A stretch of 64,000 nt of DNA from Thiolapillus brandeum (lineage in GTDB: Bacteria > Pseudomonadota > Gammaproteobacteria > Chromatiales > Chromatiaceae): positions 2,170,001-2,234,000 of the forward strand of contig NZ_AP012273.1 of the NCBI RefSeq assembly GCF_000828615.1, given 5' to 3'. A program made the translations under genes and the position numbers. The notes below the pieces were generated by a model, which was not told where the DNA came from, made no database searches, and saw nothing but the letters and a program-made list of their open reading frames with translations. Below, piece after piece: positions 60,901-63,597 of the stretch; position 1 is the stretch's first letter, and the number at the start of each line of letters is the position of its first letter.

Positions 60901-61569
60901 ATGATCCGGTTCGACAATGTCAGCAAGACCTACCCCGGCAGCAGTGGCGGCCTGCGGGAAGTCAACCTGCATATCGAGCCCGGGGAAATGGTCTTTCTCA
61001 CCGGCCATTCCGGCGCAGGCAAGAGCACCCTGCTAAAGCTCGTGGGTCTGCTGGAACGTGCCAGCCGCGGCCAGGTCTGGGTGAACAAGCACAACCTCGG
61101 CCGCCTCAAGCCCCGGCAGATACCCTTGCTGCGCCGGGAAGTGGGCATGATCTTCCAGGATCACCGCCTGCTCACGGATCGCACGGTATTCGACAACGTC
61201 GCCCTGCCCCTGGTGGTAACCGGAGTGAAACACCAGGAGATCCGTCGCCGGGTGCAAGCCGCCCTGGACAAGGTGGGCCTGCTGAAAAAGGCCAAAGCCC
61301 TGCCCCTGACCCTGTCCGGGGGAGAACAGCAGCGGGTGGGCATTGCCCGGGCCATCGTCAGCAAGCCCCCCATCGTCCTCGCCGACGAACCCACGGGCAA
61401 CCTGGATCCGGATCTGTCCCGGGAAATCATGAATCTGTTTCACCAGTTCAACCAGGTGGGCGTGACCCTGCTCATCGCCACCCATGACCTGGGGCTCATC
61501 CAGCCCATGCAACAACGCATCCTGGTACTCGACCAGGGGCGGCTGGTAAAGGATCAGGCACAGCCATGA
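60901..61569 (+). CDS. ftsE: cell-division ATPase FtsE
   Basis: A 222-residue ABC ATPase: Walker [10 protein letters not shown], signature [14 protein letters not shown], Walker [13 protein letters not shown]. It works with FtsX to activate peptidoglycan hydrolases at the septum (family knowledge). The TGA stop overlaps the ftsX start. Confidence 0.97.
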
Positions 61570-62528
61570 GAAAGCGCAGACGCAAGGCGGCATTCAATAA
61601 ACATTTCAGCCTTTCTGCCTGGCTGGCCCGCCATGCCCAGGTGTTCCTCTCCAGCCTGGGACGCCTGGCGCGCCGTCCCCTGGGCAGCCTCATGACCCTC
61701 ACCGTATTGGGCATCGCCATCTCTCTGCCCCTGGGGCTGCACCTGTTGGTAAACAACCTGCAGCAACTCGCCGGAAACTGGGATGGCTCCGCAAGCATCT
61801 CCCTGTTTCTCGAAGATGGCATCAGTGAGGAGCAGGCCGAAGCTCTGATGGATACCCTGAAAACCCGGCCCGATATCGGCGCGGTGCAACACATCACTCC
61901 GGAACAGGCCATGGCTGAATTTCGCCAGCATTCAGGTTTCGGTGACGCCCTGGATCTGCTGGACAGCAATCCCCTGCCTCATGTGCTGCTGGTACAACCC
62001 GCCAATCCGGATCTGCATACACAACGCATCAAACCCCTGCTGGACCACTTGAAAGCCCAGCCCGGCGTGGAACTGGCCCTGGCGGATCTTCAATGGGTGG
62101 AGCGTTTCCAGGGCATCAACCGGATGCTGGAGCGGATCGCCCTGCTCCTGGCCCTGCTCCTGGCCCTGGCGGTGCTGTTGATCATTGGCAACACCATACG
62201 CCTGGAGATCCAGAGCCGCCGGGATGAAATCGAGATCGTCAAGCTGGTGGGCGGCAGCAACAGCTTCATTCGCCGTCCTTTCCTCTACGAAGGTTTCTGG
62301 TACGGACTCCTGGGAGGCCTGCTCGCCACACTTTTGATCTGGCTGGCCTCCCTGGCCCTGCGCGGACCGGCTCAACATTTGGCAGACCTCTATCACAGCA
62401 ACTTCCACCTCGGAGGTCTGGATCTGCATACCGCCGCCCTGGTGCTCGGCATGAGCGTACTTCTGGGCATCGCAGGTGCCTGGACAGCCGTCAGCCAGCA
62501 TTTACGCGATATTGAGCCAAGCGACTGA
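61566..62528 (+). CDS. ftsX: cell-division membrane protein FtsX
   Basis: A 320-residue protein with four TM segments (about 44-65, 190-215, 243-265, 285-310) and the large periplasmic loop between TM1 and TM2 that binds EnvC-type activators. It overlaps ftsE by ATGA. A 149-base gap with a CIRCE operator follows before rpoH. Confidence 0.95.
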   Translation: MRKRRRKAAFNKHFSLSAWLARHAQVFLSSLGRLARRPLGSLMTLTVLGIAISLPLGLHLLVNNLQQLAGNWDGSASISLFLEDGISEEQAEALMDTLKTRPDIGAVQHITPEQAMAEFRQHSGFGDALDLLDSNPLPHVLLVQPANPDLHTQRIKPLLDHLKAQPGVELALADLQWVERFQGINRMLERIALLLALLLALAVLLIIGNTIRLEIQSRRDEIEIVKLVGGSNSFIRRPFLYEGFWYGLLGGLLATLLIWLASLALRGPAQHLADLYHSNFHLGGLDLHTAALVLGMSVLLGIAGAWTAVSQHLRDIEPSD

Positions 62529-62574
62529 TAAAAAAGTAAAAAAATATTTTATCCACAGGGAACTTTTGGCCTGG

Positions 62575-62601
62575 TTAGCACTCTTACATGACGAGTGCTA
62601 A
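62575..62601 (+). promoter_or_regulatory. CIRCE operator (HrcA-binding site) upstream of rpoH
   Basis: An exact match to the CIRCE consensus TTAGCACTC-N9-GAGTGCTAA (arms 62575-62583 and 62593-62601) lies 77 bases before the rpoH ATG. CIRCE is bound by the repressor HrcA in many bacteria (known). Its place here implies HrcA control of rpoH transcription. No hrcA gene lies in this window. Confidence 0.93.
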
Positions 62602-62677
62602 TTTTTCTGGCGAAGATGCCGGAGCAATGCTAACCTAATTACGTGGAAACAATTCGATTGTGGGGGTAGAACAGAAA

Positions 62678-63520
62678 ATGAACAACAAACAACTCGCTAC
62701 AGCCACCATGCCTACCGGAAGCATGGAGTCTTACATCAGCGCGGCTTTTCAATTGCCCATGCTCAGCCAGAAGGAAGAGCATGATCTGGCCGTGCGCCTG
62801 CGCGACAACAATGACCTGGAAGCCGCCCGCCAGCTGGTCATGAGCCACCTGCGCTTCGTAGTGCGTATTGCCCGCCAGTATGCGGGTTATGGCCTGCCGC
62901 AACCGGATCTTATCCAGGAAGGTACTGTGGGCCTGATGAAAGCCGTACGCCGCTTCGATCCGGAGGTGGGTGTGCGCCTGGCATCCTTTGCCGTGCACTG
63001 GATCAAGGCTGAAATCCATGAATTCATCCTGCGCAACTGGCGCATCGTGAAAATCGCAACCACCAAGGCCCAGCGCAAATTGTTCTTCAACCTCCGCTCC
63101 AGCAAAAAGCGGCTGGGTTGGTTCAGCGAGCAGGAGATTCAGGACGTGGCCAGCGACCTGGGAGTGAAACCCGAGGAAGTGCGCAACATGGAAGCCCGCC
63201 TGAACAACTACGACATGGCCTTCGATGCCAGCGACAGTGATGACGAGCACGTGGCTCCGGTGAGCTACCTGCCTGACATGAGCATGGAACCTGAGAGCAT
63301 CCTCGAAGCCGAGGACACTGAAAGGGACGAGAACGAACGTCTGTATGCAGCCATGCAGGAACTGGACGAGCGCAGCCAGGACATTCTGCGGCGCCGCTGG
63401 CTGTCCGGAAAGAAGGCCACCCTGCACGAACTGGCCGATGAATACGGCGTTTCCGCCGAGCGCATCCGCCAGATCGAAAAAGCGGCCATGAACAAGCTGC
63501 AGGAAAAAATAGCCGCCTGA
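62678..63520 (+). CDS. rpoH: heat-shock sigma factor RpoH (sigma-32)
   Basis: A 280-residue sigma factor. The RpoH box QRKLFFNLR near residue 130, sigma-2 ([22 protein letters not shown] in pieces) and sigma-4 HTH ([20 protein letters not shown]) identify it. ATG 62678 with GGGGGT upstream is chosen; a GTG at 62660 is possible. It controls heat-shock genes and is itself likely controlled by the CIRCE element upstream. Confidence 0.96.
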
Positions 63521-63548: not shown

Positions 63549-63571
63549 AATGGCCTGCAATGCAGGCCATT
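63549..63571 (+). terminator. perfect palindrome between rpoH and bioD
   Basis: A stem AATGGCCTGCA/TGCAGGCCATT (11 bp with one central base) follows rpoH by 28 bases. There is no T-run directly after, so it may be a weak terminator or a protein-binding site. Confidence 0.55.
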
Positions 63572-63597
63572 CCTGTTCTGCTTTCTGGGGGTAGCAC

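Follow-up and report, generated by a model that had tools for sequence, protein, structure and literature searches.

A perfect CIRCE operator coincides with predicted sigma70 and sigmaE promoter elements upstream of rpoH in Thiolapillus brandeum

A perfect CIRCE operator lies between ftsX and rpoH, the gene for the heat-shock sigma factor sigma32, and coincides with the predicted core promoter elements of rpoH. From this arrangement, it is quite probable that the HrcA operator is superimposed on the rpoH core promoter and that bound HrcA blocks RNA polymerase carrying sigma70 or sigmaE. Control of rpoH by HrcA is in itself strongly supported by the comparison of sequences: many families retain the site, the genome encodes hrcA, and the operator coincides in position with core promoter elements. 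Three stress circuits (RpoH, HrcA, and RpoE) probably meet at this one promoter. Computation established the operator, showed that hrcA and rpoE are both encoded, and revealed that the promoter elements are conserved and co-vary among relatives. Features are listed below with positions in the window, that is, the whole 64,000-nucleotide stretch analyzed.

61566..62528, forward strand: ftsX, the 5' neighbor of rpoH and a possible source of read-through (TIGR00439, 359 bits).
62559..62565, forward strand: predicted sigmaE (RpoE) -35 element GGAACTT, at a conserved offset of -16 from the CIRCE start.
62575..62601, forward strand (palindromic; read on the rpoH strand): perfect CIRCE operator, TTAGCACTC-TTACATGAC-GAGTGCTAA (that is, TTAGCACTC-N9-GAGTGCTAA), with 0 mismatches.
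62575..62580, forward strand: possible sigma70 -35 element TTAGCA within the CIRCE left arm, 18 bp before the -10 element, proposed from the sequence and the variants of relatives.
62582..62586, forward strand: predicted sigmaE -10 element TCTTA (TCnnA form), made of the last two left-arm bases and the first three spacer bases, 16 bp from the -35 element.
62596..62604, forward strand: predicted sigma70 extended -10 element TGCTAATTT, TGC-TAATTT (CIRCE right arm plus three bases), based on conservation of T at CIRCE+3 and on the promoters of CIRCE-less relatives.
62678..63520, forward strand: rpoH (sigma32), the regulated gene (TIGR02392, 397.7 bits; cut-off, 323.1).

Both ftsX and rpoH were identified by equivalog models well above cut-off. 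The sequence-only reading had claimed an exact CIRCE consensus between these genes, and the match at 62575-62601 bore this out. The right end of the operator is 76 bp from the rpoH ATG, and the operator sits on the predicted promoter elements. No other CIRCE was found in the 64-kb window at ≤3 mismatches (chance expectation from shuffles, 0.04). A search of the genome (3.15 Mb, three contigs) for further sites, as that reading had proposed, returned one more before groESL, so that at ≤3 mismatches there are two CIRCE sites in all, both perfect: one in the ftsX-rpoH gap and the other upstream of groES-groEL, 51 bp 5' of groES. A plasmid search using the rpoH region gave no match. The presence of hrcA had been named beforehand as make-or-break for the proposal, and the gene was found (TIGR00331, 339.5 bits against a cut-off of 197; PF01628 and PF03444 also above cut-off), in the order hrcA-grpE-dnaK-dnaJ (L005, G000:C1:1640000-1652000). 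The site upstream of rpoH thus combines the consensus, hrcA in the same genome, and placement at the promoter of a heat-shock gene, as expected of an HrcA/CIRCE operator. The hrcA-grpE-dnaK-dnaJ operon contains no CIRCE at ≤3 mismatches, and hrcA does not appear to be under its own control in this organism. Because the genome holds just the two CIRCE sites, the predicted HrcA regulon consists of two transcription units and no more, groESL and rpoH.

The upstream regions of rpoH were then compared among 49 genomes including the source genome, with CIRCE counted at ≤2 mismatches. It was present in 36 of them, with 22 of 29 positive inside the family and 14 of 20 positive in families elsewhere in the class; the intergenic comparison in relatives therefore agreed with conservation across many families. 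A strict pattern (exact CIRCE, narrow distance, rpoH codons) matched 27 of 369 genomes sampled evenly across the class. In public data, a scan of 84,980 species genomes gave at least 119 stretches with CIRCE at rpoH. Among the matches listed are Nitrosomonas, Comamonadaceae, Alcaligenaceae, Rhodocyclaceae, Dyella, Pseudoalteromonas, and Rheinheimera, as well as Halieaceae, Thioalkalivibrio, and one Geobacteraceae genome. The rpoH CIRCE is widespread and common in GTDB Gammaproteobacteria (Betaproteobacteria included), and it is no oddity of this species. HrcA control of the sigma factor gene, first proposed for this DNA in the form of repression, is supported by conservation, hrcA, and promoter position, but other genomes share the link. 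Two relatives that are 97-98% complete, G025 (L050) and G049 (L253), have a near-CIRCE at rpoH and no hrcA was found in them, which reflects either an assembly gap or a recent loss of hrcA; we count these two cases against the proposed reading.

The connection between CIRCE and rpoH is not new: a perfect CIRCE at -51 of rpoH, with predicted HrcA control, was described for Geobacter sulfurreducens (Rodionov et al. 2004, PMC545781, Table 8). That site resembles the present one in being a perfect CIRCE before rpoH; it differs in that a single genome was concerned and overlapping promoter elements were not analyzed there. The same article (PMC545781) also cites Permina and Gelfand 2003, who had earlier surveyed beta-, gamma-, and epsilon-proteobacteria. 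No further rpoH prediction appeared in the open articles examined that name CIRCE, HrcA, and rpoH together. What the comparison adds is how the site is constructed. The promoter signatures that coincide with the operator, including one of the sigmaE type like E. coli rpoH P3, had been missed by the sequence-only reading.

We collected 137 non-redundant rpoH-CIRCE sites (136 with full upstream flank) and used 35 groES-CIRCE sites as the control. T occupies CIRCE+3 in 131 of 137 rpoH sites versus 2 of 35 groES sites (P = 7e-27; this and the P value given below treat sites as independent, though the sequences are related), and the preceding base in the rpoH sites is usually A. Kinship among the sites probably matters little for these P values, given that the neighboring flank positions show almost no conservation. 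Read together with the next three bases, the right arm gives TGC-TAAAAT, TGC-TAATAT, or TGC-TAACAT, which is the form of an extended -10 element (TGCTAAnnT); none of the 36 genomes with an rpoH CIRCE departs from TGCTAA in the right arm. An enlarged HrcA palindrome was considered as the cause of the conserved 3' bases and rejected, since the 5' counterpart of CIRCE+3 is unconserved (A at -3 in 19 of 136) and the groES sites are without the T. This asymmetry points to a promoter and away from an extended HrcA palindrome.

Relatives with altered or missing operators show a similar arrangement. Within the same family, seven members encode hrcA and have no CIRCE at rpoH, and all seven carry an extended -10 element (TGnTAnnnT) at a similar place before rpoH, for example TTGTCA-N18-TAGACT with TGC ahead of the hexamer in G031. 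The imperfect CIRCEs of relatives have TTGGCACTC as the left arm in six genomes, which improves the -35 element; the variant reads TTGGCA in these six, and TTGTCA/TTGGCA-N17-18 occurs in the CIRCE-less relatives. The present species has TGn ahead of a TAnnnT hexamer at 62596-62604. Its hexamer is the weak TAATTT; in many relatives, TAAAAT or TAATAT stands there. A generic sigma70 scan of 62300-62800, requiring a 9-of-12 match to TTGACA/TATAAT, gave no promoter. Because there is no such match, the element in this species is predicted to work like a sigma70 extended -10 element, not to form a strong sigma70 promoter. The loci of Geobacteraceae (L125) and Zymogenaceae have no T at CIRCE+3, and L125 is also without the sigmaE -35 element; the Geobacteraceae arrangement may be independent of the gammaproteobacterial one.

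The second signature is of the sigmaE type. GGAACTT (≥6 of 7 bases) stands at offset -16 in 41 of 136 rpoH sites, and another 16 have it at -17 or -15; there is almost none at other offsets save -12, and it occurs in 0 of 35 groES sites at these positions. The spacer starts with TnA in 37 of 55 sites with GGAACTT (≥5 of 7 bases) versus 16 of 82 otherwise (Fisher P = 3.5e-8); joined to the end of the left arm, this TnA makes TCTnA, a sigmaE-type -10 element at N16. In ten sites the -35 element is shifted by 4 bp to -12, and TCnnA is shifted by 4 bp likewise (10 of 10 versus 5 of 126 elsewhere). Complete sigmaE promoters (GGAACTT with TCnnA, N15-17) were present in 63 of 136 sites, compared with 36.5 ± 3.2, and a maximum of 47, upon random re-pairing of flanks and spacers in 1000 trials. 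Among genus members with sequence there, GGAACT is kept at this position in 12 of 12. The present genome has GGAACTT-N16-TCTTA at 62559-62586, as in a P3-like promoter, and it encodes rpoE (TIGR02939, 314.7 bits; cut-off, 236). The genome-wide count of the sigmaE motif is not above the reversed control (17 in all versus 36), and for this reason the sigmaE reading is supported by conservation, not by the motif alone. The upstream region of rpoE itself has a -35 element at 6 of 7 bases only. GGAACTT-N16/17-TCnnA also occurs before dsbC (G000:C1:2122364-2122391), a tail-specific protease gene (G000:C1:2462190-2462218), and a signal peptidase I gene (G000:C1:933742-933770), which are sensible envelope-quality targets and candidate members of an RpoE regulon.

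These data bear on whether HrcA might repress rpoH through CIRCE at a sigma70-type promoter only, with the match to GGAACTT/TCnnA going unused. The extended -10 element is nearly universal (131 of 137), whereas a recognizable sigmaE -35 element is absent from about half of the rpoH-CIRCE sites, and the sigmaE motif is not over-represented genome-wide here. On the other hand, the exact offset, the co-variation of TCnnA, and the joint shift in 10 of 10 sites would be difficult to account for unless a sigmaE promoter were under selection, and this species combines a perfect GGAACTT with the weaker sigma70 hexamer. We thus regard a sigma70-only promoter as unlikely and favor the use of both promoters under HrcA. 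More of the rpoH traffic may run through the sigmaE promoter here than in relatives with TAAAAT, because TAATTT is a poor sigma70 hexamer.

Transcription from farther upstream has to be weighed as well. Several promoters serve rpoH in E. coli, transcripts could read through from ftsYEX here, and in one relative (G022) CIRCE lies 214 nt from the matched rpoH start; CIRCE could accordingly be a relic, or be bound without consequence, while the real rpoH promoters lie in or before ftsX, a case for which the sequence-only reading had allowed. This is improbable in our estimate, as the 27-bp site remains perfect in different families even though its spacer and flanks have diverged, and this perfection together with the conserved promoter bases around CIRCE speaks for selection for function. 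Read-through would also matter if the inverted repeat worked in mRNA, as a leader hairpin affecting the stability or translation of rpoH and not as a DNA operator. The 9-bp inverted repeat could fold in a transcript reading through from ftsX, since a scan of 62300-62800 found no terminator-like site between the two genes. Transcripts from either predicted promoter, however, would begin within or beyond the repeat, leaving out the left arm, and the folds of the predicted leaders did not surpass those of shuffled sequences (z = +1.0 and +0.6). No Rfam family matched in 62000-63000, and the sequence of both arms is conserved beyond mere complementarity. A role in mRNA is consequently very improbable, more so than a relic, and the reading that we retain is a DNA operator for HrcA on the core promoter.

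For this operator we infer HrcA binding, the use of both promoters and their start sites, dependence on RpoE, repression by steric block, and feedback through GroE, in the following course. At normal temperature, free GroE would keep HrcA active, and HrcA would occupy CIRCE and block polymerase. The -10 element of the sigmaE promoter (62559-62586) would lie in the left half of the operator and that of the sigma70 extended -10 promoter (62596-62604) in the right half, so HrcA on CIRCE would cover both -10 regions and exclude polymerase with either sigma factor. When heat inactivates HrcA, or unfolded protein titrates GroE, both promoters would open and rpoH transcription would rise; envelope stress would give extra sigmaE-driven rpoH transcription. 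The RpoH so made would turn on chaperone genes, and the rising GroE would restore HrcA and shut down rpoH.

Parts of this scheme are known from other systems. HrcA/CIRCE at groESL (dnaK) uses an identical operator, and the same genome has the classical groESL site. There, a -10 element (CTATTA-T) and a TTGA-type -35 element lie upstream, followed by CIRCE at about the start site, whereas at rpoH CIRCE itself supplies the predicted -10 elements and the controlled gene encodes a sigma factor instead of a chaperone. In Campylobacter, HrcA binding is enhanced by GroE and abolished by heat, and HrcA binds within the core promoter (PMC8533110); the GroE titration model comes from Bacillus (PMC8533110). 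Campylobacter jejuni HrcA is thus alike in core-promoter binding tuned by GroE and heat, but its promoters are Pgro and Phrc, HspR is a co-repressor, and rpoH is no target. In E. coli, RpoE transcribes rpoH from P3 and recognizes GGAACTT (PMC8103513), so a sigmaE-type promoter, a predicted one in the present species, stands directly before rpoH in both organisms. E. coli has no hrcA, hence no operator, and an HrcA family search of its genome, used as a control, gave no match; here, the predicted promoter overlaps CIRCE.

HrcA repression, sigma32, and sigmaE are usually presented as separate heat-shock strategies. We see about an even chance that the rpoH promoter and CIRCE form one composite element across most hrcA-bearing GTDB Gammaproteobacteria, with HrcA gating sigma70 and sigmaE together, and that the E. 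coli form is derived from an ancestral three-way switch. If so, E. coli, with sigmaE P3, no operator, and hrcA lost, would have a stripped-down heat-shock switch. Were rpoH gated by HrcA in most beta- and gammaproteobacteria that have hrcA, sigma32 synthesis would be set transcriptionally by the availability of chaperonin, a layer added to the known control of sigma32 stability and translation, and the E. coli rpoH control of textbooks would be that of a lineage with one layer lost.

Several minor features surround rpoH. A perfect palindromic GGCCTGCAATGCAGGCC-like stretch at 63550-63575 of the window, between rpoH and a bioD-like gene, is a possible rpoH terminator. About 30 bp 3' of CIRCE, at 62631-62640, there is a half-site-like AATGCTAA, and several genus members keep AATGCTAA. 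The matching region of L049 reads ATAGCACTT-N9-TAGTGCTAA, a degenerate second CIRCE, and the half-site region 3' of the rpoH CIRCE is possibly an auxiliary HrcA site. In L254 (G043), an extra CIRCE right-arm sequence (gagtgctaaaattt) 5' of rpoH directly adjoins CIRCE, like tandem overlapping operators.
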